In this document: in pieces, positions 10,088 to 35,183 of the stretch
Layout of the letters: every line of letters begins with the position of its first letter
Numbering within the stretch: the first letter of the stretch is position 1
Assembly (NCBI GenBank): GCA_021793515.1
Contig: JAJYSP010000025.1
Coordinates: 1-35,311, forward strand
Direction: 5' to 3'
Length of the DNA stretch: 35,311 nt
Origin: Actinomycetes bacterium
GTDB lineage: Bacteria > Actinomycetota > Acidimicrobiia > Acidimicrobiales > RAAP-2
Program-made: the position numbers and the translations under genes
The notes under the pieces: model-generated
Seen by the model: only the letters and a program-made list of their open reading frames with translations
Databases searched by the model: none
What the model was told of the DNA's origin: nothing

Positions 10088-11974
10088 TTATGCGATCTGG
10101 CTGTAACGAACTCGGCAGGACTTACCGTTCGCGAGGACGATCAGGAAGGTGAAAATACCATTTCGCGATCCTGCGCGCACCGACGTCCGTACCGTCAACT
10201 GTCGGCCACTGTCACGAAGAACCGTGCTCACGGTTCCAACGTGACTGGTGACCTTCGGACGACCGTAGAAGCCCTGGCCCTGGATCAACAGCGTTACCGT
10301 ACGACCTTCGACGGCACGTCCAACGACGCGATAAGCCCGAAGGATCAGTACAGGCGACTTGGTGACCGCCAACGTGTACGTAAAGGTTCCGAGGTCGCCG
10401 GTAGCGTCGCCCGTCGTTCCGGTAGCCGTGTAGGTGCCGGGACTCTGCATGCCAACCGTCTGCACCACACCCGTGGCGGAAACGCTGAGGTTACTCGAGC
10501 CGCCATTCTTGGTGAAGGTGACCGCGCCATTGGAACCGCTCACGAGGAGCTGTGCCTTGAAGCTGGCCGACGATGTGTTGACGACGGTGCCTGACAGGGG
10601 AGCAGTCTGAGTGATGAGTCCGACCGTCAGGGTGTAGGTGAAGACACCGACGTCGCCGTTGGTGTCACTCGTCGTTCCTGAAATGGTGTAGGTACCCGCA
10701 CTCAGCGTGTGACTCGTTGACACGACGCCAAGGGGACTGACAGTCAAGTTCGGTCCTTTGGCGTGCACGACGTAAGTAACGGCGCCCGTGGCGCCCGTAG
10801 ACGTCAACTGCGCGGTAAAGGTCGTTGAACCAGTGACGGTCACGGCACCGCTTGTCGGAGCGCTCTGCGTGATGGTACCGGCCGACGTCGTGAACGGGAA
10901 GGAAGCATCGATCCACGTAGATCCGGCGGGGGCAGTACCGCAATGGGTCGCCGCGCTCGAGTCGTTACTGGGATAGGGCGTGGCGTTCAACTCACACACG
11001 TAGACGGTGTACGTGGTGCCCGCGGCTAGTCCAGCGGGAACCGTGGTGGTTCCACTGAGCTTCGGTGCGAACAGGGTCGTCCCGTCGTAACAATCGTTCG
11101 AGATCGTTACCCCGGCTGCGCTGCCGTTAACTGGTGTGACGGTGGGCGAGGAGAACCACTTCACCGCGAGGAACGAGGTCGGTACATTCCCGTATCCGCT
11201 TCCCGTGGCACACGATGCGGGTGTGGCCACTGGCGTTGTCGATAACGCTGCGGCCTGTACGGCCTCGATGGCGTTACCCCACCAGTACTTATTCGCGGCA
11301 TTCGTGTCGGCGAGCGTGACTACCGTGCCGGCCCCACCCTTGAGGGGTGTTGCAGTGATGGTGGGGCTGTTCGGTAGCGGCTGACCGGCGTAGGTCATGA
11401 GAAACTCACCACCGGGCAACGGGGCGAGTGACGCATTCACGACCGCAACCGCACAACCGAACAAGCCGGCGTTGATCTGAGCCTGCGTGGGCGGACAGGC
11501 TGCATTTGCGTCGGTGGCGGCAAACGTCTTAGGGACAGCCAGCGTCGTCACGGTGCACAATCCCGCTGTAGCAGCGGGACATCCGGTGTTCGTTGTACTC
11601 CTTGCAAACGTGGCCAAGGTCGCGACGTCTGCCTCGTTCGACGGCGTGACGCCCGTGGAACTGATGCCACCAAGAAGCGACGCCTGTAATGCGTAAGCGG
11701 CCGTCGACGACACGTTGCAGTCGATGGTCAGGACGCTGGTGCCGGCCTTGACGCCGACAACGAGGCTGCCCGAGGGCGTCGCCACAACAGTGCCGGGAGC
11801 CGTCGAAACGACTTCATTGCACGGTGAGGCGGGCGTTGCTGCACTGGCAGCTCCACCTGACGACAGCGTGAGCCCAGTTACGAAGAGACTGGACGTGGCA
11901 CCTAGGAGGACCAGTACGCCAAATTGCGCGCGGAGCTTTCGGAAGGCACCTTTATCGGTGCGAGAAGAATTCAT
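10088..11974 (-). CDS. Secreted surface protein with two Ig-like repeats
   Basis: 628 residues with a long signal peptide (basic start, hydrophobic core about residues 18-36, Ala-rich cleavage region near 42-47). Residues 48-365 form a Cys-containing, Thr/Ala/Ser-rich region with ten or more cysteines, suggesting disulfides. Two tandem repeats of about 85 residues follow: 368-452 (starting ITQSAP) and 454-537 (starting ITQTAP). Each ends in a GxFTYTL motif, typical of Ig-like beta-sandwich repeats. The last 90 residues, with LLIQGQGFYGRPKVTS and NGKSC, resemble an IPT/TIG fold. No catalytic motif or sorting signal is visible. A structural or adhesive envelope role is inferred. Its leader holds a hairpin and an element shared with the gene at 13529. 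Confidence 0.8.
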   Translation of the reverse strand: MNSSRTDKGAFRKLRAQFGVLVLLGATSSLFVTGLTLSSGGAASAATPASPCNEVVSTAPGTVVATPSGSLVVGVKAGTSVLTIDCNVSSTAAYALQASLLGGISSTGVTPSNEADVATLATFARSTTNTGCPAATAGLCTVTTLAVPKTFAATDANAACPPTQAQINAGLFGCAVAVVNASLAPLPGGEFLMTYAGQPLPNSPTITATPLKGGAGTVVTLADTNAANKYWWGNAIEAVQAAALSTTPVATPASCATGSGYGNVPTSFLAVKWFSSPTVTPVNGSAAGVTISNDCYDGTTLFAPKLSGTTTVPAGLAAGTTYTVYVCELNATPYPSNDSSAATHCGTAPAGSTWIDASFPFTTSAGTITQSAPTSGAVTVTGSTTFTAQLTSTGATGAVTYVVHAKGPNLTVSPLGVVSTSHTLSAGTYTISGTTSDTNGDVGVFTYTLTVGLITQTAPLSGTVVNTSSASFKAQLLVSGSNGAVTFTKNGGSSNLSVSATGVVQTVGMQSPGTYTATGTTGDATGDLGTFTYTLAVTKSPVLILRAYRVVGRAVEGRTVTLLIQGQGFYGRPKVTSHVGTVSTVLRDSGRQLTVRTSVRAGSRNGIFTFLIVLANGKSCRVRYSQIA

Positions 11975-11995
11975 GTGACGCCAACTTTCTTACAA

Positions 11996-12020
11996 GACAC
12001 CTGACTATCTGTCAGATGTC
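11996..12020 (-). promoter_or_regulatory. Leader hairpin of the surface-protein gene
   Basis: GACACCTGAC (11996-12005) and GTCAGATGTC (12011-12020) pair over 10 positions, one of them a mismatch or G-U pair depending on strand, around a 5-nt loop. It begins 22 bases upstream of the ATG and next to the ribosome site AAGAAAGTTGG (11981-11991). It may mask or stabilise the leader, or be an operator. Confidence 0.35.
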
Positions 12021-12021
12021 A

Positions 12022-12056
12022 AGGAAGCGGGGTCTTGACGTCCTAGACGAATCGTA
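12022..12056 (-). promoter_or_regulatory. -10 box plus shared start-site element (copy 1)
   Basis: Reading the minus strand, TACGAT (12056-12051) is followed after 5 nt by TAGGACGTCAAGACC (12045-12031), then C-CGC-T-TCC. The same element, with two changes, follows a TATATT box at 13871 before another minus-strand gene. Both copies begin where transcription should start and lie 53-57 nt from their start codons. Confidence 0.45.
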
Positions 12057-12221
12057 GCACAACCACTCAATAGCGGGAATAGAAAGTCCCCAAAGTTCTC
12101 CGTGTAGTAGACGTTATAAGTGATGTATAAGCAGTTTAATGAACTATTGCCGTGAGGTACTTGCCACATGGTGCGGCATGAGGGTGTTTAGTATCAATCG
12201 ACCGAAAATGAGGTGACGGGA

Positions 12222-12824
12222 ATGAGGACCGCAACGCGTTGGGAAAACATGGACGGCGCCGTATTCGGCGCGATTGTTGGCATGGTCGCATTGTCGTTCG
12301 TGGTCCTCGCGACACCGCTGGCCCAAGTGAGTGCAGCAGCGGTTCCTCGATGCTCACTTCGCCAGCTCGCTATCACCGCGAACGGGCAGGTCGGTGCTGG
12401 CGGCACCGACGGTGGTGTTCTTACGTACCGGAACACCTCAAGGCACGCGTGTTCACTAACTGGCTACCCGAACGTTGTCGCTCGTGGACCGAAGGGGTCG
12501 GCGATCAGGGCCGTTCACGTGTTCAGCGGCATGCTCGGCGGTTGGGACTGGAGCGGTCTTTCGCCAAAGCCGAAGCCACCGGTCGTCGTCTTGTCCGGGA
12601 CCAAGGGATTTGCTTCTGACTGGTTTCAATTTTCAGAGAATGGGCCCGCAGGCTACACACTCTTTCGAGCCAGCACCTTAGAAGTGAGTCTCGTGGGTTC
12701 GAAACCGTTCGTTCGCGTTCGAGGGATTGTCGACGCCGCAGAAGGGAAGATGTGGGTCACCCCGTTCGTTCCTGGCAGGACGGGAACCGATGAACCGACC
12801 ACGACACCGTCGCGTCTGGGCTAG
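12222..12824 (+). CDS. Secreted DUF4232 domain protein
   Basis: 200 residues from the ATG at 12222, preceded by GAGGTGA at good spacing. The longer GTG frame lacks a ribosome site. An N-terminal hydrophobic segment (about residues 11-35, ending ASA-like) is a signal peptide or anchor. The rest fits DUF4232: a first Cys in RCSLRQLAIT, a YRNTSRHACSLTGYPNV motif (second Cys and the conserved Leu-Xaa-Gly-Tyr-Pro), and a C-terminal beta-rich half. DUF4232 proteins are extracytoplasmic and often lipoproteins in Actinobacteria; their role is not defined. A 16-bp palindrome overlaps the stop codon. Confidence 0.8.
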   Translation: MRTATRWENMDGAVFGAIVGMVALSFVVLATPLAQVSAAAVPRCSLRQLAITANGQVGAGGTDGGVLTYRNTSRHACSLTGYPNVVARGPKGSAIRAVHVFSGMLGGWDWSGLSPKPKPPVVVLSGTKGFASDWFQFSENGPAGYTLFRASTLEVSLVGSKPFVRVRGIVDAAEGKMWVTPFVPGRTGTDEPTTTPSRLG

Positions 12825-20765: not shown

Positions 20766-20821
20766 GCGCCGGTTGATCCAATGACGTGAACAGGACACCC
20801 GAAGATCGTGAGCCGATACGC

Positions 20822-22315
20822 ATGTCCATGAACGGAGAGGTCATCGGCGGGCGGTACCGGGTTGGTCGACTCCTCGGCCGAGGTGGAACCTCAGACGTCT
20901 TCGAAGCGATCGACGAGCGTACGGGGGGGCCAGTAGCCATCAAGGTGGTCCGCTCCGATGACCCAGAGTTCGTCCGACGACTGGTCGAGGAGGCTCGCGC
21001 GTTGGAGAGCTTCGATGGACCGGGACTCGTGCGGTTCCTCGACACGGGTGTGCACGGCGACCGGGCGTATCTCGTCATGGAATACATCGACGGCCCGACG
21101 CTCGCGCAGTCGCTCAAGGACGGCCCGCTGGGCACGGGGGCCACGGCGGCGATCGCCGCGAGGGTGGCGAGTGCGCTGAGTTACGTGCATGAGCGCGGCG
21201 TCGTGCATCGCGACGTGAAACCATCCAACATCCTGCGATCCTCCACGGGCGAGGTCTGGCTCGCCGATTTCGGCATCGCGAAGTTCGATGATGCGACGAC
21301 GATCACGGCGCCGGGTACGACCATCGGCACGGTTATCTACATGGCGCCTGAGCAGCTCGACGGTCAACGGGTTGGACCGAGCGCGGACATCTGGTCACTC
21401 GGCATCGTGATCCTCGAGTGCTTGACGGGGAGGCGAGTCTTCGAGGGCTCGCCCAGTGAGATCGTTGCGAAACGGCTCACTGGACCGGTCGTACTCCCCA
21501 AAGACTTGCCGAAGCCGTGGACGGTGCTGCTGAACGGCATGCTCGATCCACGACCCGATCATCGCCTGCGTGGGGCGGAAGTAGCTGCGCTGCTCGAGAG
21601 CTCGGCGTACGTGACGCCGTGGGTGCCTGGTGACAACGACGAGACCCAGGTGCTCGGTCGCAGTGGGTCGAGTGACGAGACCCAAGTGCTCGGTCGCAGT
21701 GGGCCGGTCGACCAGACCTTCGTGATGCCCGGCGTCGTCGCGCCGGTACGGGGGGGTGACGAGACACTCTTCGTCCAACCTTCACGGACCCCCGATCGCC
21801 ACACGCGACGGCCGTGGGTCGTCATCGGCGTGCTCCTCGTTGCGGGAGCTCTGATCTACGCATTGGTCGCATCACTGTTCGGCGGTTCGACGCCCGGTCC
21901 TACGTCGACGACGACCACGACACTTCGAGCGACGACGACTACGACGCTTTCGAGCTCGACGGCAATCGCCGCGTTGATGTCTGATCTCGCGACGAGCCAG
22001 GCCGCGGGCTCAATTGCACCTGCGGTGGCCCAGAGCATTTCACAGTTCGCGAATCAGTCGCTCATCGATAACGCGAACGCCAATCTCGTCGCCGTCGAAG
22101 GTGACTTGCAACAAGCGATGACGACGATTGTCGACGGTGTAGCGTCCTCGACCATTACGCCGACCGTGGGATCGAAGCTCGAGCACGACGTGAGCGCCCT
22201 CGCTACGGCGCTCGGTGTTGCAACACCGAGCACGACCACAACCACCACGACTCCATTCGTCGTACCCGGACCGGGCAACGGGAATGGTCATGGAAATGGC
22301 AACGGTCGTCACTAA
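20822..22315 (+). CDS. Transmembrane Ser/Thr protein kinase (PknB-like)
   Basis: 497 residues from the ATG at 20822 (a GTG at 20786 is the alternative). The kinase domain (about 12-260) is complete: a Gly-rich loop GRGGTSDVF, Lys41 in VAIK, HRDVKPSN (Asp131), DFG (149-151) and APEQL. A juxtamembrane part (270-320) carries two tandem 12-residue repeats beginning DETQVLGRSG and two looser ones (DQTFV, DETLFV). A membrane helix spans about 331-354. Outside lie poly-Thr linkers, a helical domain (about 380-465), a second Thr run and a Gly/Asn/His tail. No PASTA repeats are present, so the sensed signal is probably different from that of PknB. It lies next to an Rpf-like gene, which fits control of cell-wall growth. 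Confidence 0.93.
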   Translation: MSMNGEVIGGRYRVGRLLGRGGTSDVFEAIDERTGGPVAIKVVRSDDPEFVRRLVEEARALESFDGPGLVRFLDTGVHGDRAYLVMEYIDGPTLAQSLKDGPLGTGATAAIAARVASALSYVHERGVVHRDVKPSNILRSSTGEVWLADFGIAKFDDATTITAPGTTIGTVIYMAPEQLDGQRVGPSADIWSLGIVILECLTGRRVFEGSPSEIVAKRLTGPVVLPKDLPKPWTVLLNGMLDPRPDHRLRGAEVAALLESSAYVTPWVPGDNDETQVLGRSGSSDETQVLGRSGPVDQTFVMPGVVAPVRGGDETLFVQPSRTPDRHTRRPWVVIGVLLVAGALIYALVASLFGGSTPGPTSTTTTTLRATTTTTLSSSTAIAALMSDLATSQAAGSIAPAVAQSISQFANQSLIDNANANLVAVEGDLQQAMTTIVDGVASSTITPTVGSKLEHDVSALATALGVATPSTTTTTTTPFVVPGPGNGNGHGNGNGRH

Positions 22316-22483: not shown

Positions 22484-22719
22484 TCAACTTGTCAGTATGA
22501 GAAAAATACCGGCGAAAACGCGCGAAAGAACGAATTGTCACCGTAGAATTAACGCCGCAGCAAAGACTGCTTCGATGTCACCTCACAAACGAGTGGGTTA
22601 AGTGGCCAATTGACCGTGTCGCTTGGTGGACCTTTCTGGTCAGTCGCCAAGTCATGTGCCCGGCGCCGGTGTTCGCAATGCGAACGGCGACGGGTGCAGC
22701 GCACGCCAAAGGAGAGACC
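22484..22719 (+). promoter_or_regulatory. Long structured leader before the Rpf-like gene
   Basis: No coding frame is convincing. One stem, CTTGG...CCAAG, encloses GACC/GGTC (about 22622-22651). Another, CGCC...GTTCGC-aat-GCGAAC-GGCG (22664-22689), sits just before the ribosome site. Rpf genes of Actinobacteria are often behind riboswitches, but I could not find the conserved core of the c-di-AMP (ydaO) class here. Confidence 0.35.
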
Positions 22720-23163
22720 ATGCGAAGAATCTTGTATGCGACTGTGGCGTTACTCACCAGCGCTGCGGTACTGCCTTCATCGGGCGGTGCCGCGAGCACG
22801 TTGCCGACCCCACATGCGAAGAAGGTCATCGTCGTACACCACCGGGCACAACCACGCGTTAAACGAGTGGTTCATCGCCCGACGTTACTCAGTTACGTGG
22901 CGGCCCTCGCGCGGGTCACAGTGAATCAGTTGCGAGCGGAGTGGCAACACGTGGCGATCTGTGAAGTCGGCGGAAACTGGTCGATGCAGGGCCCCGTCTA
23001 TTCGGGCATCGGATTCGCGAACTCGACGTGGTCCGAATACGGTGGGACGCAGTTCGCGCCCTTGGCCGGTCAGGCACCTCGTGACGCGCAGATCCTTATC
23101 GGTATGCGCGTAACCGGTGGCTGGGTCCCCGACCAGAATGGTTGCGCGCCAGGTGGTTGGTAG
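22720..23163 (+). CDS. Rpf-like secreted lytic transglycosylase
   Basis: 147 residues from the ATG at 22720, with AAAGGAGAG seven bases before it; the open frame upstream has no site. A signal peptide (about 1-26, MRRILYATVALLTSAAVLP) is followed by a basic linker rich in His, Lys and Arg. The C-terminal part (about 70-147) matches the transglycosylase-like/Rpf domain: WQHVAICEVGGNW with the catalytic Glu, then GIGFANSTWSEYGG and a helix with the APRDAQILIGMRV ending. Rpf enzymes cleave peptidoglycan and wake dormant cells. The domain lacks LysM or G5 additions, so it is a minimal form. The adjacent kinase may influence the same process. Confidence 0.88.
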   Translation: MRRILYATVALLTSAAVLPSSGGAASTLPTPHAKKVIVVHHRAQPRVKRVVHRPTLLSYVAALARVTVNQLRAEWQHVAICEVGGNWSMQGPVYSGIGFANSTWSEYGGTQFAPLAGQAPRDAQILIGMRVTGGWVPDQNGCAPGGW

Positions 23164-25659: not shown

Positions 25660-26559
25660 TCAGTGGAACGGCGGCGGCAGGACGGCGATGATGGCGTCCG
25701 CGATGGCTTCGTAGCCCGCGGCGTTGGGGTGGATGTTGGGACCGTACGGGGCGGCGGCGCACATCCACGTGAGATGACAGACGGTCGCCACGTTCGTCGG
25801 CACGCGCCTGCCCGAACGGTAGGTGGTCGAGGTCTGGTGCAGGTGGAAGACACCGGCCACGTTGGCCATCGGCATGCCCTGGGACTGATAGATCGTCGCG
25901 AGCGTCTGGTCGAGTTGACTAATGGCCTGGAGACTCGCGCGGGCGTGGATCCTTCCGGTAGTGCCATTGGCCGCCTGGGCGAGGTACGGGTCGGCGAAGC
26001 TGAGCCCAACGAAGGTCACGTTCGGGCCCGCCGCGGCCTTGAGCACCGTGAGGATGCTGGTGAGCTGGGGCGCCATCTGGTCGATGCTCTGCTGCACGCA
26101 GGTGGGGTCGACCACGTGGGTACGAAGGCACGGCACGACCGAGTTGAAGCCGAGGTCGACCGTGACCAGGCCGGTCTGATCGTGGTGCGCGTTCAAGAAC
26201 GTGATCGCGTCGGCCAACTGGGAATCGCCCGAGTGATAGCAGCCGTCCTTACCGTTGACCATCGTCACTACCGACTCACCGGGACACCCCAGTTCAGTGA
26301 GCGTGAGCGATATCCCGTGGCTCGCCTCGTAGGCGATCAGGTCGTTCGCGAAACCGTGGTGGGTCCGGTACCCGGTGGGGTGCAGTGGCGTGGGCTGGAC
26401 CCCGACGGACACCGACGCGCCGATGTCGAGGTAGAAACCACTCGTAATCGTGGCTGCCCCGGCGGCGCCGACGCCGCTGGCGACTCCCACCCCGGCGAGC
26501 ATCGTCAGCGCGGCCGCGAGCATGGCGACACCACGCGTGAACACTCGTTGGAAACGCAC
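25660..26559 (-). CDS. Secreted SGNH/GDSL-type hydrolase (paralogue 1)
   Basis: 299 residues with a GTG start after AAGGAG and a signal peptide (about 1-36). Block I reads YLDIGASVSVG, with Ser in the GxSxxxG nucleophile position but Ala instead of Asp before it. Block III reads VTVDLGFNSV, where Asn would shape the oxyanion hole. Block V reads GPNIHPNAAGY, with the catalytic His but Pro where the DxxH Asp usually lies. Six cysteines are shared with the paralogue at 31172, as expected outside the cell. SGNH enzymes are esterases or acyltransferases. The neighbouring acyltransferase-3 gene suggests work on acyl groups of an envelope molecule. Last gene of the five-gene block. Confidence 0.85.
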   Translation of the reverse strand: MRFQRVFTRGVAMLAAALTMLAGVGVASGVGAAGAATITSGFYLDIGASVSVGVQPTPLHPTGYRTHHGFANDLIAYEASHGISLTLTELGCPGESVVTMVNGKDGCYHSGDSQLADAITFLNAHHDQTGLVTVDLGFNSVVPCLRTHVVDPTCVQQSIDQMAPQLTSILTVLKAAAGPNVTFVGLSFADPYLAQAANGTTGRIHARASLQAISQLDQTLATIYQSQGMPMANVAGVFHLHQTSTTYRSGRRVPTNVATVCHLTWMCAAAPYGPNIHPNAAGYEAIADAIIAVLPPPFH

Positions 26560-26583
26560 TACTCGGACTCCTTGACGTTCTAG

Positions 26584-26616
26584 CGCGACGGAGACCCGTG
26601 GGGAGTCTCCGTCGCG
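26584..26616 (-). terminator. Hairpin between acyltransferase and SGNH genes
   Basis: A perfect 12-bp stem (CGCGACGGAGAC, 26584-26595, with 26605-26616) and 9-nt loop. It lies about 100 nt past the acyltransferase stop and just before the ribosome site of the SGNH gene. It has no U tract, so it could be an attenuator or mRNA-stabilising stem rather than an end. Confidence 0.45.
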
Positions 26617-26715
26617 AATCCATTCATTGACCCCATCTACGGTACGGCATAGTTCGAGCGAGAAGAACGTGTGTCACGAAGAAATGCATAAGAATTAAGG
26701 GTTCTGACGCCTCCG

Positions 26716-27951
26716 CTACGGCTCAACGACGTCCATCGGTCCGTCGGCGATGTCGCCACGTTCGACCACCGCGGGGAGCTGACGGCGAGGCCACAGGCTC
26801 GCCCAGGTCGCTCGGCTGCGGCCGGTGACACCCTTGGCAACCCAGGTCCGCGCCATGAGCGCGGTGAAGACGAAACCGACGCTGTAAACGATCACGAGGG
26901 CGAGCGGAGCGGCAACCTGCCAGGGGAGGTGCACCCCGCTCGCGGCGCGAAGTCGAACGAGCGCGGGGATCCAAATCATCTGGGAGAGATAGACGCCGTA
27001 GGAATTGTCGGAGCCCGACTGGACCATGGCACGGATTCGGGCCCGTCGTGCCGGGGCGGTTAGGTAGACCCCGAGCAGGTAGACGCACAGGATGGCACCG
27101 ATGTTGTACGGGATGATCAGGGGTGAGAAGACATAAACACCCGTGCGCAGGTAGGGCGGCAGGACGTGGGCGACTCCGACGTAGGTGAGGACCTCCGCGA
27201 GCGCCATGGCCGCCAGGGTTCCACCGAGGATCAGAGCGACGTGCTGCACGATCCACTGGTGGACCTCGTCGAGGTGGAGCGCCACGATGACGCCGCCCAC
27301 GATGTAGATGACGTAGGAAAGGATGAGTCGGGTCTGCAGGAGCCCCGGCACTGAGAGCACAGCGTGGTGCGAGCTGACCCAGGCGCCGTAGGCCACCTGC
27401 CAGAGCAGGGCACCCACCATCATCCGCCAGTGCCACGTTGGGTGGCGTCGGATGAATCGGAGCATGAGCGGGAAGAGGACGTAGAACTCGCCGATGACGA
27501 GCAGGTAGTAGAGGTGGTAGTACCCGGTCGCGGTGAGGTGGGTCAGGACGCGAAGGCCGCTCCAACTGAAGACACGTGCGGCGTCAAAGGCGTAGTACGG
27601 GAACGTCGAGCGGGTGTTGAGCGACGTGTAGAGGAAATAGAGGACCGTCCAGGTCAGATACGGCACGCCGACGGACATGAAACGCCGTTTCGCGTATGGC
27701 AGGACCGCGACCTTTGTCGTGTTGCGGTAGCTGTAGGTGAGCATGCACGCCGAAACGAAGAGGAACGCGTCGCGTGAGAATCGGGTCAACATGATCAGGC
27801 CGACGACGGTGGTGCTCGTCGCCAGTGGCGCGAAGAAGATGAGGGCGTGCGTGGAGATGACGGCCGCCTGCTTGACCGGCCGCATGGCGTCGATGTGGTC
27901 GAGACGCCGACGGGTGCCCGAGGGTGGCGCCGCCGGCTCGGGGGCGCTCAT
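26716..27951 (-). CDS. Acyltransferase-3 family membrane protein
   Basis: 411 residues with about ten helices. The family motif R/K-x10-H is intact in the first helix (Arg24 to His35, in DAMRPVKQAAVISTHAL). A Ser-Phe/Arg-Asp turn follows (RFSRDAFLFVSACML), and the YGVYLSQMIW segment near the end is also family-like. Acyltransferase-3 proteins pass an acyl group from a cytosolic acyl donor to a glycan or lipid on the outer face, often completed by an SGNH protein. The adjacent acyl-CoA ligase (28 bp away) and the two SGNH genes fit this scheme. The C-tail of about 40 residues is basic and cytosolic. Confidence 0.88.
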   Translation of the reverse strand: MSAPEPAAPPSGTRRRLDHIDAMRPVKQAAVISTHALIFFAPLATSTTVVGLIMLTRFSRDAFLFVSACMLTYSYRNTTKVAVLPYAKRRFMSVGVPYLTWTVLYFLYTSLNTRSTFPYYAFDAARVFSWSGLRVLTHLTATGYYHLYYLLVIGEFYVLFPLMLRFIRRHPTWHWRMMVGALLWQVAYGAWVSSHHAVLSVPGLLQTRLILSYVIYIVGGVIVALHLDEVHQWIVQHVALILGGTLAAMALAEVLTYVGVAHVLPPYLRTGVYVFSPLIIPYNIGAILCVYLLGVYLTAPARRARIRAMVQSGSDNSYGVYLSQMIWIPALVRLRAASGVHLPWQVAAPLALVIVYSVGFVFTALMARTWVAKGVTGRSRATWASLWPRRQLPAVVERGDIADGPMDVVEP

Positions 27952-27979
27952 CGGCGATCCGCTGACGACGCTGACCTCT

Positions 27980-29491
27980 TCACGTGAGGTCCATGGTGGC
28001 GATCACGTCGAGCGGTTCGCTCGTCAAGCGGTGCTTTTGGATCTTGCCGGTTGCGTGGGCCGGTAGCTGGGCCACCACCGTGAAGGACGCGGGCCAGTGC
28101 GTCTTTGGGAACCCCTCGGTGACGACGCGGCGTAGTTGGGCCAGCACCGAGTCGCGGTCGCAGTCTTCGGCCAACTCCACGTACGCCGTGGGTACCTCGC
28201 CGAAGACGTCATCGGGTAAGGCGATGACCGCCACACCCCGCACGTGTTCGACGCCGAGGAGTGCGTCTTCGAGTTCGCGCGGGAAGATCTTCTCGCCTCC
28301 CCGGTTGATCACGTCGTCGCTGCGTCCAACGAGGTAGAGGTAGCCATCCTCGTCAAGGTAGCCGAGGTCGCCGGTGCGCAACCACCCGTCGATACTGAAA
28401 CGGTCCTCGTAGCCGGCGCTCTCGTAGCGCGTGATTACCGACGGCCCGTGGATCTCGACGTGGCCGACGTTGGATGAGGGCACCGAGGGATCGGCTTCGT
28501 CTTCGGCGAATGGCGCGATGCGCAATTCCACGCCGACGGGGACGCCCGCCGAGCCAGGTTTGCGATCACCGTCGAGGGGATTGGCGCTGATCTGACTCGC
28601 GGCCTCAGTCATACCGTAGGACTCGATCACGGGAATGGCGACGGCCAATTGGAACTGCGCGAAGACCGCGGGGGAGAGTGGCGCGGACGCCGAGCGAACG
28701 AAACGGATGCGCTCGGCGATGACCTCGGCTTCTCGCAGGTTCGACAGCCGGGCGATGATCGCGGGCACCGCGTTGATCCACGTGACCTCGTACTGGTCGG
28801 CCAGCGCCCAGAAGTCGGTGCGGTGGAAGCGCTCGTCTAAGACCAGGGAGGAGCCCGCGACGAGGGACGCCAACAGGCCGACGACTTCGGCATTGATGTG
28901 CCAGAGCGGAAGGGGGTTGAGGCCGCGATCGGCTGGGGTGAGCCGGTTGTGCGTCGCGACGAGCGAGGCCGTGTGGAGTAGTTGTGCGGCGGGCAACGCC
29001 ATGATCTTGGGCGTGCCCGTCGTGCCCGAGGACGCGAGGATCACGCCGCCGGTGTCGGTCGACACGGCGTCGGTCACTGGAACGGACGCCGGCGGCGTGC
29101 GCACGTCGTGCCAATTCACGATCACCGCGCCGGGGCGGTCGAGGTCGCTGAAGACCGCGTGCACGCCGAGACGTCGGAGTCGGGCGTTGAGGGCATCAAC
29201 GTTGATCGGGTTCATCGTGGGGTCCAGAGGGGCGACCCACAGGCCGCAGGCGATGACGGCGAGGAACGCCTGGGCGAATAGGAGGGGGTCGCGGATGAGG
29301 AGTCCGACGCGGTCGCCGCTGCGCAGGTCGAGTTCGCCCAGTCGCGAGAACCACCAGTCCCTCGTCCGCTCGAGGTCGCTAAAGGAGACGACGTCGCTGG
29401 AACGGAGTCGCAGGAGGTAGGGTGCGGCCCCGTACTGCTCGGATCGTCGTGCGATCAGGGCGCCCAGGGACCGCGGATGCTCGTCGCTCAC
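27980..29491 (-). CDS. Acyl-CoA synthetase (AMP-binding)
   Basis: 503 residues from the GTG at 29491 (GAGGAG six bases upstream). The open frame to 29782 overlaps the dehydrogenase gene and is not family-like. Motifs: P-loop ILASSGTTGTPK, ESYGMTEAASQ, DGWLRTGDLGYLDEDGYLYLVGR, the hinge DDVINRGGEKIFP, and the catalytic Lys in GKIQKHRL. Such enzymes adenylate a carboxylic acid and load it on CoA. The whole N-domain and mobile C-domain are present. Chain length cannot be told from motifs. Together with the aldehyde dehydrogenase just before it, the gene pair would convert an aldehyde to an acyl-CoA for the membrane acyltransferase. Confidence 0.9.
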   Translation of the reverse strand: MSDEHPRSLGALIARRSEQYGAAPYLLRLRSSDVVSFSDLERTRDWWFSRLGELDLRSGDRVGLLIRDPLLFAQAFLAVIACGLWVAPLDPTMNPINVDALNARLRRLGVHAVFSDLDRPGAVIVNWHDVRTPPASVPVTDAVSTDTGGVILASSGTTGTPKIMALPAAQLLHTASLVATHNRLTPADRGLNPLPLWHINAEVVGLLASLVAGSSLVLDERFHRTDFWALADQYEVTWINAVPAIIARLSNLREAEVIAERIRFVRSASAPLSPAVFAQFQLAVAIPVIESYGMTEAASQISANPLDGDRKPGSAGVPVGVELRIAPFAEDEADPSVPSSNVGHVEIHGPSVITRYESAGYEDRFSIDGWLRTGDLGYLDEDGYLYLVGRSDDVINRGGEKIFPRELEDALLGVEHVRGVAVIALPDDVFGEVPTAYVELAEDCDRDSVLAQLRRVVTEGFPKTHWPASFTVVAQLPAHATGKIQKHRLTSEPLDVIATMDLT

Positions 29492-29511
29492 GAAACTCCT
29501 CGCACGTTCAG

Positions 29512-29533
29512 CCGTCGCATGGGAACGCGACGG
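29512..29533 (-). other. Intercistronic hairpin
   Basis: CCGTCGC (29512-29518) and GCGACGG (29527-29533) pair perfectly around an 8-nt loop in the 92-bp gap between the aldehyde dehydrogenase stop and the ligase start. It may mark processing or partial termination in the operon. Confidence 0.4.
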
Positions 29534-29583
29534 AACGGGTGGGTGCCGTGCTGCGTTGCGGAGTTCGCTCGGTGGTGGCGCAT

Positions 29584-31083
29584 TCAGTGAGTCTGGGTCC
29601 AGACGGACTTGGTCTCGAGGAACTCGTTGACGTGCTCGACACCGCCCTCGCGGCCGTAGCCGCTCATCCGGTAGCCCCCGAAGGGAACGGCGGGGTCCAT
29701 CTGCCCATAACAGTTGACCCAGACCGTTCCGGTGCGTAGGGCGCCCACGGTCCGGGTCGCCTTGGTGAGGTCGTTGGTCCACACGCCACCACCCAGACCG
29801 AAGGGACTGGTGTTGGCGAGTTTGATGACGGACTCGTAGTCATCGAAGGCCATGACCGAGACGACGGGTCCGAAGATTTCCTCTTTGGCGACGCGCATGT
29901 CGTTGTCAACGTCAGTGAAGATCGTTGGCGCCACGAAATAGCCCTTGGCGTAGTCGCCTTCGGTGAGTCGCGCACCCCCGGTGTAGACGGCGGCCCCCTC
30001 GGCGCGCCCGACGTCGAAGTAGTCGGTCACGCGCTCGAGCTGGGTCTGTGAGACGAGTGGTCCAAGCTGGGTGGTGTCGTCGAGTCCGTTACCCACGGTG
30101 AGTGCGTCCGTATAGGACGACATGGCCTGCACGAAGTCGTTGTAGATGCCGCGTTCGACGAAGAGCCGCGTACCGGCGCTGCACACCTGCCCGGAATTGG
30201 TGAAGGCCGCCATGGCCGCACCGGGGACCGCGAGGTCGAGGTCGGCGTCGTTGAAGACGATGTTGGGCGACTTGCCGCCGAGTTCTAGGGTGACGCGCTT
30301 CAAGGTGCCAGCGGCGGCACGAACGATGGCTTGACCCGTCGCGGTCGATCCGGTGAAGGCAATCTTGTCGACGCCGGGGTGGACGCTTAACGCGGCGCCG
30401 GCTGTCTCGCCGTAGCCCGTCACGACGTTGACCACGCCGTCGGGCAGGCCGGCCTCGAGGAGCATTTCGCCCAACCAGAGCGCGCTGAGGGAGGCTTCCT
30501 CGGCGGGCTTAAGTACGACGGTGCAGCCCGCGGCAAGTGCGGCGCCGACCTTCCAGATGAAGGCGATGTGGGGGTTGTTCCAAGGGATGATGGCACCCAC
30601 CACGCCGACGGGTTCGCGCAACGTCTGGGTATGGAAGTCACCTGGAATCGAATTGGTGATGGTCTCGCCACGCAGCGCCGTGGTGAGACCGGCGTAGAAG
30701 CGGGCCATACCAACCGCCCGGCGCAGGTTGCCTCGCATGCGCTGGATCGGGGCACCCATGTCGAGGGTGTCCAAGATCGCCAAGTCCTCGTGTCGCGATT
30801 CGACCAGGTCGGCGAAGCGAAGCATGATTCGTTGGCGGTCAAAGGGCTTCATCGTCGACCACGGTCCGTCGTCGAAGGCGCGACGTGCGGCCGCGACCGC
30901 CCGGTCGACGTCGGGCGCGTCACCGGCGGGCAGGCGGGCGAGCAGTTGACCCGTCGCCGGATTGAGCGTGTCGAACGTCTCGCTCGATACCGCTGGGACG
31001 AATGCGCCGTCGATCAGCATCGATGCAAGACCGCCGGTGACGAATCGCTCAATCGCCGAGGGGACGGAGACTTCTTGTGGCAT
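29584..31083 (-). CDS. NAD(P)-dependent aldehyde dehydrogenase
   Basis: 499 residues with AAGGGG seven bases before the ATG, complete for the ALDH superfamily. Visible are IIPWNNP (Asn169-Asn170 region), Lys192 in VLKPAE (cofactor), the FTGSTATGQ Rossmann segment, general base Glu267 in TLELGGKSPNIVF, nucleophile Cys301 in SGQVCSAGTR, and EEIFGPVVSV near the end. It oxidises an aldehyde to the acid; the closest types are betaine-, phenylacetaldehyde- or aliphatic-aldehyde dehydrogenases. Position before the acyl-CoA ligase implies its product is activated next. A 27-codon frame upstream ends over its start codon. Confidence 0.93.
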   Translation of the reverse strand: MPQEVSVPSAIERFVTGGLASMLIDGAFVPAVSSETFDTLNPATGQLLARLPAGDAPDVDRAVAAARRAFDDGPWSTMKPFDRQRIMLRFADLVESRHEDLAILDTLDMGAPIQRMRGNLRRAVGMARFYAGLTTALRGETITNSIPGDFHTQTLREPVGVVGAIIPWNNPHIAFIWKVGAALAAGCTVVLKPAEEASLSALWLGEMLLEAGLPDGVVNVVTGYGETAGAALSVHPGVDKIAFTGSTATGQAIVRAAAGTLKRVTLELGGKSPNIVFNDADLDLAVPGAAMAAFTNSGQVCSAGTRLFVERGIYNDFVQAMSSYTDALTVGNGLDDTTQLGPLVSQTQLERVTDYFDVGRAEGAAVYTGGARLTEGDYAKGYFVAPTIFTDVDNDMRVAKEEIFGPVVSVMAFDDYESVIKLANTSPFGLGGGVWTNDLTKATRTVGALRTGTVWVNCYGQMDPAVPFGGYRMSGYGREGGVEHVNEFLETKSVWTQTH

Positions 31084-31116
31084 CAGTGGCCCCTTCGCTC
31101 AGTGTCGGTGGAGACC

Positions 31117-31139
31117 GCTACGGCCCCAGTCCTCGTAGC
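31117..31139 (-). other. Intercistronic hairpin
   Basis: GCTACG (31117-31122) pairs with CGTAGC (31134-31139) around an 11-nt loop in the 88-bp gap between the SGNH paralogue 2 gene and the dehydrogenase gene. Additional C/G pairs flank it with a bulge. Confidence 0.3.
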
Positions 31140-31171
31140 CGGCGGCGTCGTCACGGTGCTCCTCATAAAAG

Positions 31172-32071
31172 TTAGCCCCGCCAGGCCGCCGGCAGCGCCG
31201 CCTCGATGGCCGCGGCGATGACGCGATATCCCGCGTTGTTGGGGTGGTCGTCGGGCCCGAAGGGGTAGCCCGCGCAGTTCCAGGTCAGCTGGCAGGTCCT
31301 CGCCACGTTCAACGGCACCACGCCGACGCCCTTCAGCGACACGGGATTGCGGTTGTCCAGCTGGTACGCGCCCGCCACGTTGGCCACGGGAATGTTCGAT
31401 GCGTGATACAGACGCACGAGGTCACTGTCGAGTGTCGACATCACCTGGAGGGTTCGAGTGGCCACCGCCACGTGGATGCCCCCCTGCAGGTACTTTGAGA
31501 GGAACGGGTCGCTGTAGTCGAGGCCGACGAAATGGACGTTGGGTCCCGCAGCCGATTTGAGCGCCGCGAGCACCGGCGTGAAGTCGCGGGTCACGTTCGC
31601 CAGGCCGGCGGCGACACACGCCTCATCGACCACGGCGGTGTTGAGACAGGGACGAACGTCGTTAAAGCCCAGGTCGATGGTGACGAGACCGACGGCATCG
31701 TGATTCGCCTGGAGGAACTGTTCGGCGGTAAGCAGTTGGCGCTGGGGCAGGGTGTAACAGTGGTCGCCACTGAGCAGCATCGACTCGACGGTCTCACCGG
31801 GACAGCCGATTTGTCGCAACTGCAGGTCGACGCCCTTGGTCGACAGATAGTTGACGACGTCGTTGGCGTAGCCGGTATCGGTGCGATGACCGTTGTGCTT
31901 CGGGATGCCCGTTGGCTGGAAGCCCAACGACGATGACGCACCGACGTCGAGGTAGAACCCTGAGGTCACGGTGGCGCTCGACCCGGCAAAGGGGTGCATC
32001 AGCAGGTAGGTGCCGATGACGGCGGCGATGAAGACGACGATCGCGAGCCGTCGGACTAGCTGCAAGAACAC
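31172..32071 (-). CDS. Membrane-anchored or secreted SGNH-type hydrolase (paralogue 2)
   Basis: 299 residues from the GTG at 32071. The longer frame to 32266 is not supported, and GGGG upstream is a modest ribosome site. The N-terminus (VRRLAIVVFIAAVIGTYLL) is a signal anchor. Blocks match paralogue 1: YLDVGASSSLG, VTIDLGFNDV, GPDDHPNNAGY. It also has Ala before the block-I Ser and Pro in the usual DxxH Asp position. Six cysteines align with paralogue 1, two of them in CQLTWNC. Long shared stretches such as AAGPNVHFVGLDYSDP show a common origin by duplication. As first gene of the minus-strand block it may be translated from the same mRNA as the acyl-activation genes. Confidence 0.85.
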   Translation of the reverse strand: MFLQLVRRLAIVVFIAAVIGTYLLMHPFAGSSATVTSGFYLDVGASSSLGFQPTGIPKHNGHRTDTGYANDVVNYLSTKGVDLQLRQIGCPGETVESMLLSGDHCYTLPQRQLLTAEQFLQANHDAVGLVTIDLGFNDVRPCLNTAVVDEACVAAGLANVTRDFTPVLAALKSAAGPNVHFVGLDYSDPFLSKYLQGGIHVAVATRTLQVMSTLDSDLVRLYHASNIPVANVAGAYQLDNRNPVSLKGVGVVPLNVARTCQLTWNCAGYPFGPDDHPNNAGYRVIAAAIEAALPAAWRG

Positions 32072-32317: not shown

Positions 32318-33190
32318 ATGGCCGAGACCATGGGGAGGTGGGGTACGCGACGCGAATGGCCCACTCGCACGAGGAGCGCAGTCAACGGACCGTCGTCGGT
32401 GCCCGTCGCCGGGCGGCCATGGTCGTGGCGGCGGTTCCCGATTCGCTACGTCGGTGTCCTCGTGGGCTCACTCATCGCGTGGCAGGTGGTAGCGGTCAGT
32501 CACGTCTTTCCGAGCTTCGCCTTCCCGTCGCCGGCGAGCACCTGGGATTCGTTTCTCCAGACGTTGCACCACGGGTATCAGGGCTCGACGCTGCTCGCCG
32601 ACCTGATGGTGAGCCTGGAACGCGTGTCGATCGCCTACGTGGGGGCCGTCGTGATCGGCGTGACGCTCGGCTTCGCGATGACCCAGAGTCGTGCCGTGTT
32701 CACCGTGATCGATCCGTACTTGCAATTCCTTCGACCGATCCCACCGCTCGCGTACATCCCGCTTTTCGTCGTGTGGTTCGGGATCGGCGAGATGCCCAAG
32801 GTGCTCTTGATCCTCGTCTCGACCGTTCCGGTCATCGTGATCAACACCATCAACGGCGTGCGCTCGACGCCCAACTACCGGGTCGAACTAGCTCGCAACC
32901 TCGGCGCCAACCGACGCCAGATACTGACGAGAGTCGTCTTCCCGTCGGCGCTGCCGGACATTTTCACGGGCATGAAGGTGGCCATCGGCGTAGCGTGGAG
33001 CACCCTCGTCGCGGCCGAACTCATCGCGGCGAGCCGCGGGCTCGGCTGGTTGATCGAACAGGCGGGGACCGAATTGCAGACGGGCATCGTGGTGACGGGG
33101 ATCATCTTGATCGGCATCATGGGTTATCTCATGGACTTGGCCATCCGCGTGCTCGAGCGCGTGGTCATCCCTTGGCGGGACTTTGTGTGA
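32318..33190 (+). CDS. ABC importer permease (SsuC/TauC type)
   Basis: 290 residues from the ATG at 32318 with GAGTGAG nearby; upstream open frame overlaps the divergent region and lacks family features. After a basic N-tail of about 38 residues come six helices. The EAA-like loop appears as ELARNLGANRRQILTRVVFPSALPDIFTGMKVAIG. Family-typical stretches are RPIPPLAYIPLFVVWFGIGEMPKVLLI and VAAELIAASRGLGWLIEQAG. Such permeases import sulfonates, nitrate, taurine or pyrimidine-like compounds. Here it is first of three genes, followed by the binding protein and the ATPase. Confidence 0.92.
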   Translation: MAETMGRWGTRREWPTRTRSAVNGPSSVPVAGRPWSWRRFPIRYVGVLVGSLIAWQVVAVSHVFPSFAFPSPASTWDSFLQTLHHGYQGSTLLADLMVSLERVSIAYVGAVVIGVTLGFAMTQSRAVFTVIDPYLQFLRPIPPLAYIPLFVVWFGIGEMPKVLLILVSTVPVIVINTINGVRSTPNYRVELARNLGANRRQILTRVVFPSALPDIFTGMKVAIGVAWSTLVAAELIAASRGLGWLIEQAGTELQTGIVVTGIILIGIMGYLMDLAIRVLERVVIPWRDFV

Positions 33191-33370
33191 GCGTTGCGTA
33201 GACCCTAATCAGGGAAGACGGTACACGCAGGTGGGATTTCCCGACCGTTTTCCACGCGCGGGTAGAGCGAAGCCTGCAAGAATGCTGCAGGGCCGGTCAG
33301 CGTGTCCACCCGGTTCCGCGGGATTCGAGTGGTCGAGTTGGCGGTGCGAACCAGATCCGAGGGAGGTCCA

Positions 33371-34414
33371 GTGCGAAGGTTTCGTCGACTGACAGGTGTG
33401 GCGGTGTCACTGGCGTTCGCCGCCGGTGTGGCGACGCCACTCGCGAGCGGACTGTTTGCACCGACGCCGAGTGGGGCGTCGGTGAACGCGGGCTCGATCG
33501 CGATCGGCTACGAGAACAATGGTGCGGACCCGTCGATCATCTCGGTGGCGAACAAGTACTTCCAACACGAGATGGGCCGCGACGTGCGTCTCAAGTTGTT
33601 CACGTCGGGACCGGCCGCGCTCACCTCGCTCGCGTCGGGCCAGCTCCCGTTCATGTGCGGCTTGGGCATGCCGCCAGTGATCGCGGCGATCGCCCAAGGT
33701 GTTCCGCTCCAGGTGGTGTTCAACCAGGAGCGCTACACCAAGGACGCGGGGCTCGTCGTCAAGTCTTCGAGCGGCATCAAGTCGGTGGCCGGTCTCGCCG
33801 GTAAGAGCGTCGGGCTCGTGATTGGATCCCAGTCGTCTTTCGAACTCGCCACCTACGCCCGCCGGGCGGGTCTCAAGCTGTCGTCGGTGCGGCTGGTGAA
33901 CCTCACGCCACCGGAACTGCAGAGTGCGTGGTCGACCGGGCGAATCGAGGCGGCGGTCGTCTGGGACCCGGTGTATGACTTCCTCGTCACCCACGGCGGG
34001 CGGGTGCTGATGGATGACTCGAAGCTTCCTGTGACCGCAACGTCGTTCAATATCTGCGTGGCGAACAAGGCCTTCGCTTCCAAGCACCCGGCGGTCGCCA
34101 AGGCGTTCGTGAAGGCGCTCGGTGACGGTGTCAGCTTCCTGAGGACCCACCGGTCGGCCGCGATGGGGGTCATGGCTAAGGCGGCGGGGATCTCGGTTCC
34201 GACGGCGAAACTCGAGATCGCCGGGTACCAGATCTACTCCGTGGCCGACCAGGCGACTGCGGCGGTGCTGGGCACCTCATCGGCGACCAGCGCGAAGTCG
34301 GGCACGGCCGAGTCGCTGCTCAACAACTGGAAGGCGCTGTACAACGCGGGGACGATCACGGTGAAGCCACCCAAGTCAGCGGGCGCGTTCGTGAACCCGA
34401 GCTACGCGAAATAG
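33371..34414 (+). CDS. NMT1/SsuA-type substrate-binding protein
   Basis: 347 residues from a GTG right after GGGAGGTCCA, an excellent site. An N-terminal signal sequence (about 1-32) has no lipobox Cys, so it is secreted or anchored by the uncleaved helix. The mature part is the two-lobed type II fold: [89 protein letters not shown], and [20 protein letters not shown]. These are NMT1/SsuA/TauA landmarks. The C-terminal 40 residues are Ala/Ser-rich. Ligand unknown; candidates are sulfonates, taurine, nitrate or a thiamine precursor. Confidence 0.9.
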
Positions 34415-34424
34415 GCGAGTTCGC

Positions 34425-35183
34425 TTGGCACTACGCGTAGACCAAATTTCTAAGACCTTCGATAGCGACGACGCGAGGCGTTCGACGCACCAGGTGTTCG
34501 ACCAGTTCACCCTCGATATCGCCGACGGCGAATTCGTGGCGGTGCTCGGTCCCTCGGGGTGCGGCAAGACGACGTTGCTACGCATGATCGCGGGCTTCGA
34601 TCGTCCCGACGCCGGGCGGGTCATCTTCGACGGGAGTGACGTCACGGGCCCCGCGAGCGATCGCGTCGTGGTCTTTCAACAGCCCGGGTTGTTCCCGTGG
34701 ATGGACGTGCGCCACAACGTGGCCTTCGGACTGCAGCTGGGGCGCCGTCGAATCGATTGGCGACCCGTGGACGAGATCTTGGCGACCGTGGGGTTGAGCG
34801 AGTTCGCGGGTCACGCGCCCTATGAGCTCTCGGGAGGGATGCAACAGCGCGTGGCGTTGGCTCGCTCACTGGTGATGCGCCCGAAGATGCTCTTGATGGA
34901 CGAGCCCTTCGCGGCCCTTGACGCGCATCTGCGCCACGCGATGCAGGTGTTTCTGCGCGAGCTGTGGGTGGAGTTTCGCACCACGGTGCTCTTCATCACC
35001 CACGACGTCGAGGAGGCGATCGTGCTCGCCGAGCGCGTCGTCGTGCTCGGGTCCAACCCCGGCCGGATCCTCGGCGAGCTCGACGCGCGCGACGTGCACC
35101 CGAGCAGCGCTGACCTGTTGGACAACGCCGACTACCGACGACTTCGCCACCGAGCGATTGAGCTCCTCGGTGAATTGCCCTAA
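34425..35183 (+). CDS. ABC importer ATPase (SsuB/TauB type)
   Basis: 252 residues. The TTG start lies 10 bp after the binding-protein stop, with GGCGAG nearby; no ATG or GTG fits. Walker [11 protein letters not shown]-loop [21 protein letters not shown], signature [15 protein letters not shown], Walker [12 protein letters not shown] and the H-loop [10 protein letters not shown] are all present. The LFPWxxVxxNVxFGL wording is typical of SsuB/TauB/NrtD. With the permease and binding protein it completes one uptake system. The operon order, permease then binding protein then ATPase, is less usual. Confidence 0.93.

Follow-up and report, generated by a model that had tools for sequence, protein, structure and literature searches.

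Gene Content of the Locus

We describe here a block of five minus-strand genes in a 35,311-nt stretch of DNA from contig JAJYSP010000025.1 (assembly GCA_021793515.1), the whole of which is referred to as the window. In transcription order, the genes encode an SGNH protein (SGNH2), an aldehyde dehydrogenase (ALDH), an AMP-forming acid ligase (LIG), a standalone acyltransferase-3 membrane protein (AT3), and a second SGNH protein (SGNH1), with intergenic gaps of 88, 92, 28, and 156 nt (Table 1). A preliminary description had placed five genes of these families at 25660-32071, and the coordinates, the gaps, the Pfam matches, and the agreement of an SGNH1 model with solved GDSL/SGNH folds bear this out. 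The block alone would suggest a curious aldehyde-fed acylation; taken together with its missing half, which lies elsewhere in the same genome, it leads to a more specific reading, which we slightly favor: the block would carry out activation and transfer, one half of a system by which an extracytoplasmic molecule is decorated with a short sulfonated acyl group, 3-sulfolactyl being the likeliest.

Table 1. Features of the five-gene block and of the flanking importer, with positions in the window.
Feature	Position	Strand	Description	Best family match
SGNH2	31172-32071	-	First gene of block; SGNH fold, hydrophobic N-terminus (by eye)	Lipase_GDSL_2 3.7e-05, below cut-off
ALDH	29584-31083	-	Aldehyde dehydrogenase, accessory	Pfam Aldedh 9e-174
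LIG	27980-29491	-	AMP-forming acid ligase, core gene; GTG start	Pfam AMP-binding 1.1e-41 (protein scanned with a 17-residue upstream extension)
AT3	26716-27951	-	Standalone acyltransferase-3 membrane protein, core gene	Pfam Acyl_transf_3 1.6e-23
Stem-loop, 14 bp	26584-26616	-	In the AT3-SGNH1 gap; may be a terminator or a leader element; z -3.5	
SGNH1	25660-26559	-	SGNH fold, hydrophobic N-terminus (by eye)	
TauC/SsuC-like ABC permease	32354-33190	+	Possible sulfonate uptake, adjunct	NCBIfam TauC, 223 bits vs cut-off 342
SsuA/TauA-like substrate-binding protein	33302-34414	+	Adjunct	SsuA family, 135 bits vs cut-off 163.5
ABC ATPase of same importer	34425-35183	+	Adjunct; family by eye	

Conservation and Co-occurrence Within the Genus

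The genus of the window was sampled with 61 genomes, its own genome (G000) included, and 44 stretches around AT3 and ComA matches (36 + 8) were examined. AT3 is present in 34 of these genomes, LIG (E<=1e-60) in 32, and ComA, a homologue of phosphosulfolactate synthase, likewise in 32. The conserved core is LIG adjoining standalone AT3. Apart from the window's own locus, the genus has 31 LIG loci, and the pair is adjacent in 30 of them; the remaining one is truncated where its contig ends. Because the window's genome has few members of these families (two AT3 matches and twelve AMP-binding matches in total), this recurrent adjacency is more than chance. Within 7 kb of LIG in the same 31 loci are found AT3 (30), ComA and VOC (28), a histidine phosphatase, HisP (24), SGNH2 (14), SGNH1 (10), and ALDH (5). 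The genes occur in a long order (SGNH2, sometimes ALDH, ComA, VOC, LIG, AT3, HisP, SGNH1) and a short one (HisP, ComA, VOC, LIG, AT3), both with variants. Three of these 31 loci have no ComA in place (G036, G053, and G027); in G027 ComA lies on another contig than LIG, as it does in the window's genome, where ComA (3e-80), VOC, and HisP lie together on contig C25 and none of the three is in the window.

The five-gene layout of the preliminary description is retained exactly in one other genome (G053), whereas elsewhere the supply genes are usually ComA, VOC, and HisP, which are absent from the window. The aldehyde-fed supply on which the earlier claim of novelty was based is not supported as the core of the system, since ALDH is found in only 6 of the 61 genomes and ComA, VOC, and HisP are the usual supply genes. 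What survives in outline is a cytosolic ligase that would supply the acyl donor to AT3, with secreted SGNH partners, and with ALDH no longer at its center.

Co-occurrence over the 61 genomes, given as both / LIG only / other only / neither, is 30/2/2/27 for LIG and ComA (p 1e-12), 32/0/2/27 for LIG and AT3 (the AT3-only cases being partial genes in G028 and G042), and 30/2/4/25 for LIG and the SGNH family at E<=1e-80 (LIG only in G013 and G040; SGNH only in G002, G026, G042, and G046). The preliminary description had hinged on synteny beyond this one genome and on SGNH proteins not being found consistently without the other three families; the former is seen in the adjacent LIG-AT3 pairs and the latter in the tracking of LIG by SGNH, with the caveat that LIG-negative genomes with SGNH number 4 at this threshold and 8 at the looser 1e-30, at which SGNH is found in 39 of the 61 genomes. 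The SGNH genes are often on different contigs from LIG, for example in G001.

An rpoB tree, built to control for kinship, covers 50 of the 61 genomes; of the other 11, six gave no rpoB match and five had only fragments. On the best tree, 13 independent LIG pairs go in the same direction for ComA in 12.9, for AT3 in 11.9, and for SGNH in 10.4 cases on average, and 0 go in the opposite direction. Overall, it is highly probable that ComA, VOC, the phosphatase, LIG, AT3, and SGNH are functionally coupled.

As for transcription, the 156-nt gap before SGNH1 contains the 14-bp hairpin, and weaker stems are found at the equivalent place in two stretches, L021 (z -1.7) and L053 (z -1.2), in both of which the GCGACG/CGTCGC arms of the window's stem-loop are also present. 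A terminator scan called no T-run terminator at this gap, and a promoter scan gave nothing exceeding chance. In the ten other genus loci in which SGNH1 is near LIG, it is downstream of AT3 on the opposite strand in eight, upstream in one, and oriented as in the window in one. In view of the hairpin and of the opposite strand in eight of ten loci, SGNH1 is probably not co-transcribed with the other block genes as a rule; the first four genes, SGNH2, ALDH, LIG, and AT3, are likelier to form an operon.

Ligase, Membrane Acyltransferase, and SGNH Proteins

LIG matches PF00501 and, with its C-terminal domain, PF13193, as expected of an ANL acid ligase, and among 60 ligases of such loci (module ligases) the catalytic Lys, K483, is present in all 59 rows that have a letter there. 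The best three solved relatives given for the LIG profile are oxalate-CoA ligases, 5ie0, 6qjz, and 8aff (3e-92, 5e-90, and 2e-84), followed by succinylbenzoate, FadD13, and malonyl-CoA enzymes. These nearest relatives nevertheless differ in motif: oxalate-CoA ligases have HVH and RSCSASL or RSCSSAL, whereas LIG has H-[IV]-N and RSASAPL. R266, A268, and S269 are found in 60/60 module ligases and N200 in 59/60, and most of ten paralogues from the same genome differ at these positions, A268 being common to four of them; H198 is also found in 60/60, but is common to most paralogues too. In the ligase tree, seven paralogues group with Bacillota ligases, L098 (a Proteobacteria metagenome-assembled genome (MAG) by label), and L121, against the rest, and the three other paralogues have branches 8-10 in length. 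Mapping "paralogue" as a label on this tree takes 3 changes, of which starred branches force 2.

AT3 scores 83.7 bits against PF01757, for which the gathering score is 31. Its residues R24 and H35 are invariant in 16/16 proteins and lie eleven residues apart, the same spacing as that of R14 and H25 of OafB, which are called essential in PMC9833829. The AT3 model, which is only moderately sure (pLDDT 78), has HGSNAT as its best PDB match, at a probability of 0.99 but with an E of 0.06 and a TM of 0.38, a weak resemblance. The module AT3 proteins match each other (window vs Alicyclobacillus, E 4e-22), and the other AT3 of the window's genome does not match them (E 0.65). An SGNH domain is not fused to AT3 as it would be in an OafB-type protein; the two are encoded by separate genes. 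In two stretches AT3 is irregular: L034 has a second copy with an in-frame stop (11190-12776), and in L033 the gene is split across two frames.

The two SGNH proteins score 29.4 and 24.8 bits in Pfam, vs a gathering cut-off of 32.9 bits. The SGNH1 model (pLDDT 87) matches solved GDSL/SGNH esterases, and its nearest folds include phospholipase A1 and lipases. S49, G94, N139, and H277 are invariant in 22/22 SGNH proteins, and a wider set keeps S49 and H277 in 31 of 31 proteins and G94 and N139 in 30 of 31; six cysteines are conserved among the SGNH proteins of the genus. In other lineages, an SGNH protein matching the SGNH profile is found at 9 of 45 LIG loci vs 0 of 35 non-LIG loci, three Bacillota loci included, at least four of the nine (L113 and L115, together with L128 and L155, which match genus stretches) having supplied sequences to the profile. 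Co-occurrence of the SGNH family with LIG extends to genomes in which the two are unlinked, and on this ground we regard the family as a candidate partner for standalone AT3; that a partner protein may exist for standalone AT3 proteins is stated in PMC9833829.

ComA, VOC, and the Proposed Sulfolactate Pool

The identity of ComA is well founded, as four scanned proteins match PF02679 above its cut-off (E 1e-75 to 1e-82) and ComA matches 1u83, the phosphosulfolactate synthase of B. subtilis, at 3e-77; against the TIGR03849 equivalog, three proteins score 217-225 vs a cut-off of 280 bits. For VOC, 3rri is the sole solved relative with E<=0.001; its deposited name is glyoxalase/bleomycin resistance protein/dioxygenase. 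HisP is the third usual neighbor. True ComB is found in only 7 of the 61 genus genomes, 4 of which are among the 32 ComA genomes, and this scarcity makes HisP the natural candidate to fill the phosphatase gap in the ComA route of the genus. Five ComA stretches apart from LIG were covered in full (G000, G027, G002, and the second copies of G012 and G015), and HisP adjoins ComA in three of them, namely G000, G027, and G002, the last having no LIG that was found; a sixth LIG-separated ComA, that of G042, is a contig-end fragment. On contig C25 of the window's own genome (L057, 978-4114), an amino-acid-permease-like open reading frame (ORF; by eye) and a PLP-dependent decarboxylase lie beside HisP-VOC-ComA. 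The second ComA of G012 adjoins an SGNH1 relative (L059, 8298-10102), with no VOC or LIG matches.

Named genomes were scanned with a VOC alignment, which gave 391 relatives, of which the best 80 were kept, some of them already counted within the genus. Within 3 kb of ComA or VOC in these 80 loci, HisP is found 21 times, ComB 6 times, and a HAD phosphatase 3 times, vs a background farther out of 0.05, 0, and 0 per 6 kb, respectively; at some loci, the place of HisP next to ComA-VOC is taken by true ComB or by a HAD phosphatase. A D-2-hydroxyacid dehydrogenase is found within 3 kb in 9 of the 80 loci, all nine with VOC and with no ComA match (L097, L101, L105, L109, L117, L120, L130, L131, and L141); two of them, L105 and L130, are from Sulfobacillus, and a MurJ-like flippase comes next in the former. 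It should be noted that examples in such loci were the source of the models, so that the match is by construction for 2 of the 6 ComB genes, 1 of the 3 HAD genes, 2 of the 9 dehydrogenases, and some HisP genes. In 41 of the 80 loci, none of HisP, ComB, HAD, and dehydrogenase is nearby. The sulfolactate dehydrogenase SlcC belongs to the D-2-hydroxyacid dehydrogenase family seen near VOC, and the ComA-phosphatase and dehydrogenase routes would both fit a sulfolactate pool. Coenzyme M synthesis, considered because of ComA, was set aside by argument; among other coenzyme M genes, only ComB was searched.

Distribution in Other Lineages

A search of 395 genomes from the class gave ComA in 32, of which the window's genus accounts for 8. 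Stretches from 19 of the 24 other ComA genomes were examined (five were dropped), together with L084 of the genus. ComA, VOC, LIG, and AT3 are together in 2 of the 19, L065 and, with a different gene order, L066. On a short contig, L074 has ComA, VOC, and HisP, and L085 has a ligase fragment at a contig end; the other 16 of the 19 have a more distant ComA (34-44 percent) and no LIG or AT3 match. In a phylum sample of 396 genomes, VOC occurs in only 6, 4 of them from the genus, which indicates that the gene set is rare.

At the 80 VOC loci, ComA is present in 65, LIG (>200 bits) in 45, and AT3 (>90 bits) in 39, with all three in 35 and none of them in 12. The 35 full loci fall into seven arrangements: AT3-LIG-ComA-VOC (12), LIG-AT3-ComA-VOC (10), ComA-VOC-LIG-AT3 (9), ComA-VOC-AT3-LIG (1), and three with genes on both strands, one locus each. 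Neighbor clustering of the 80 loci included spurious antisense ORFs and served only to choose genes for scanning. The set recurs in other Actinomycetota and in Bacillota, and its named hosts include Nocardia, Pseudonocardia, Actinomycetospora, and Alicyclobacillus. A spread to Acidobacteriota was considered and rejected: the two bins so named carry Actinomycetota-type module genes. The ligase tree places L127 next to a near-identical Actinomycetes bin, and the genes of L128 match G035 of the genus; both bins are probably mislabelled or mixed. In L153, L157, and L164, a tandem pair of AT3 genes is seen, with an SGNH gene just after it on the opposite strand.

Proposed Function and Alternative Explanations

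The families, gene order, and co-occurrence are sequence-based, and from them we infer the substrate, the order of steps, and the acceptor. In the proposed pathway, phosphoenolpyruvate and sulfite would be joined by ComA, after which sulfolactate would be freed by a phosphatase, which would be HisP in this genome and ComB or HAD in certain other lineages. The genes for this step are elsewhere in the window's genome and inside the locus in most LIG-bearing relatives; VOC, in a putative role, would act on the same sulfolactate pool. LIG would then adenylate sulfolactate and convert it to a CoA thioester, AT3 would carry the acyl group across the membrane, and one or both SGNH proteins would pass it to the final acceptor, or one of them may remove it. 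A second source of acid, in the window's genome and a small number of relatives, may be the oxidation of sulfolactaldehyde or sulfoacetaldehyde by ALDH, to which a sulfonate-type importer, present in three of these genomes, may add.

Several observations weigh against this proposal. Within the genus, G036 and G053 carry LIG-AT3 with no ComA match in the genome (the assemblies are 86 and 82 percent complete), G002 has ComA with neither LIG nor AT3, and G013 and G040 have LIG with no strong SGNH match; strongly supported rpoB branches leave only 4 independent pairs, too few for significance (same direction 3.9 for ComA, 3.0 for AT3, and 2.8 for SGNH; none opposite). OafB has an Asp three residues before the catalytic His (D618/H621) that is missing from the genus SGNH proteins, with P274 at that position in SGNH1 and the equivalent P in SGNH2, although Asp is kept in L113 and L115 of Bacillota, and 36 of the 45 LIG loci of other lineages have no SGNH within the stretch. 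The best NCBIfam match of LIG is the fatty-acid family FadD7 (263 vs 650 bits, far under cut-off), and FadD13, as noted, is among its solved relatives. No glycan or lipid gene was found linked, acceptor genes not having been searched systematically. The importer scores are under the NCBIfam equivalog/subfamily cut-offs for TauC and SsuA, and the ABC genes examined beside three modules of other lineages are osmoprotectant-like by eye (L091 and L102) or NMT1-type (L096). VOC is found in only one of the five LIG-separated ComA stretches (G000), and no HisP match lies near the second copy of ComA in either G012 or G015. Finally, owing to the placement of the paralogues, the ligase tree neither establishes the module ligases as one clade nor safely excludes this. 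These last two points, the two ComA copies with no HisP and the ligase tree with no single origin, lowered our confidence in the sulfolactyl reading by a small further amount.

One alternative retains the system but changes the acid, which would be another short anionic acid (sulfoacetate made by ALDH from sulfoacetaldehyde, oxalate, malonate, or glycerate), with ComA as an indirect partner. The solved enzymes nearest to LIG use oxalate, ALDH orthologues are confined to this locus, and a Tau/Ssu-like importer flanks it in G000, G053, and G027, the ALDH loci with no ComA in place; however, ComA and LIG co-occur almost one to one and adjoin in other lineages, and ALDH is matched in only 4 of the 80 loci, one of these from the genus, which makes this explanation rather unlikely. 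In another alternative, ALDH and LIG form a catabolic route for an imported sulfonate, from aldehyde to acid to CoA thioester, with AT3 and SGNH incidental. The adjacency of ALDH, LIG, and the importer in three genomes would fit such a route, but LIG without AT3 occurs in 0 of 61 genomes and ALDH is absent from 26 of the 32 LIG genomes, and we consider it very improbable.

It might also be that ComA, VOC, and HisP make sulfolactate as a free solute, as in B. subtilis spores, where it is ~5 percent of dry weight according to PMC517825, and that LIG-AT3-SGNH is a separate acylation system sharing only the neighborhood. ComA is present with neither LIG nor AT3 in 22 of the 80 VOC loci, some of them on short contigs, and this count, which also tells against the sulfolactyl proposal, indicates that sulfolactate has uses apart from acyl transfer. 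A merely shared neighborhood is nonetheless improbable in view of the co-occurrence in the genus, the adjacency in seven arrangements across lineages, and the retention of both halves, on different contigs, in G000 and G027. The acceptor, for its part, might be a lipid or a secreted small molecule and not a glycan or wall polymer, which would be compatible with sulfolactyl transfer. Standalone AT3 proteins acylate macrolides in Streptomyces (PMC9833829), and the lipase folds among those nearest to SGNH1 point the same way, but the anionic AT3 products named in the accessible portion of PMC9558356 are glycans; such an acceptor seems somewhat unlikely.

Comparison with Known Systems

Several known systems share parts of this arrangement. 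D-alanylation by DltABCD also has a dedicated AMP-forming ligase that feeds a membrane acyltransferase and an SGNH-like protein; it differs in using the MBOAT protein DltB and an amino acid, as compared with AT3 and a putative sulfonated hydroxyacid here. The gaps of the block, 28-156 nt, leave no room for a DltC-like carrier gene, the rest of the genome not having been searched for one. Succinyl-CoA is a central metabolite, so that the succinyl-type AT3 proteins, although they likewise combine AT3 with an anionic acyl group, contrast with the dedicated acid pathway and ligase linked here. This type comprises OpgC/MdoC, ExoH, and IcaC, from which exported glycans receive (in the case of IcaC, are suggested to receive) an anionic acyl group (PMC9558356). 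The OafB/OatA type (PF01757 with fused SGNH) shares the AT3 family, the N-terminal Arg/His spacing, and an SGNH partner, and its likely donor is acyl-CoA according to PMC9833829; here, however, SGNH is a separate protein and the donor apparently has its own ligase and acid-making genes. PatA/PatB also pairs a membrane exporter with a separate SGNH transferase, which is reported as a hypothesis in the same paper, but PatA is an MBOAT protein and the membrane protein here is AT3. The YitCD system of B. subtilis spores has a ComA homologue (1u83) and sulfolactate in common with the present one; in the genus, by contrast, ComB is seldom present, HisP is beside ComA instead, and there is coupling to LIG and AT3.

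In the literature searched, with most subscription journals outside its coverage and most papers judged by title and the opening of the abstract, no description of a sulfolactyl envelope decoration was found. In the portions available, sulfolactate is named in PMC7324677 solely as the substrate of a transporter and within a reference, and PMC10562698 mentions comA of Alicyclobacillus with no envelope role. If true, the proposal would describe a surface chemistry for which no description was found and a further role for bacterial ComA, and would allow the idea of separate SGNH partners for standalone AT3 proteins to be put to a concrete test. A sulfonate remains charged at low pH. This acid-stable charge would suit acidophiles, and several hosts are acidophiles by name, a link that is an impression from record titles. 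More tentatively still, and with a likelihood that we put somewhat below even, some Actinomycetota and Bacillota may build a permanently charged sulfonated surface from phosphoenolpyruvate and sulfite via sulfolactate, a dedicated ligase, AT3, and a separate SGNH protein, which would be a new class of envelope modification.

Aldehyde Dehydrogenase and Flanking Genes

ALDH is a rare accessory of the locus. Its orthologues (E<=1e-150) lie directly after SGNH2 in each of the six genus genomes that have one, and a seventh is in L084. Among 25 of 44 families shown, ALDH reaches no NCBIfam cut-off; sulfolactaldehyde or sulfoacetaldehyde as its substrate are guesses that fit the neighbors. The possibility that ALDH replaces ComA was rejected, as four of the seven ALDH loci also carry ComA (L029, L047, L062, and L084). 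In L126, from an Alicyclobacillaceae MAG, an ALDH of 47 percent identity adjoins ComA-VOC.

Orthologues of the plus-strand importer (Table 1) adjoin the block also in G053 and G027. A sulfonate importer as a general part of the system was rejected, since the ABC genes of L091 and L102 are osmoprotectant (Opu)-like by eye and that of L096 is NMT1-type, beside a UbiD-like gene; ABC matches near the module are also found in four Actinomycetospora loci, L100, L103, L112, and L129. Elsewhere in the window, a small protein with a transglycosylase-like (Rpf-type) domain is encoded at 22654-23163, after a Ser/Thr kinase gene at 20786-22315.

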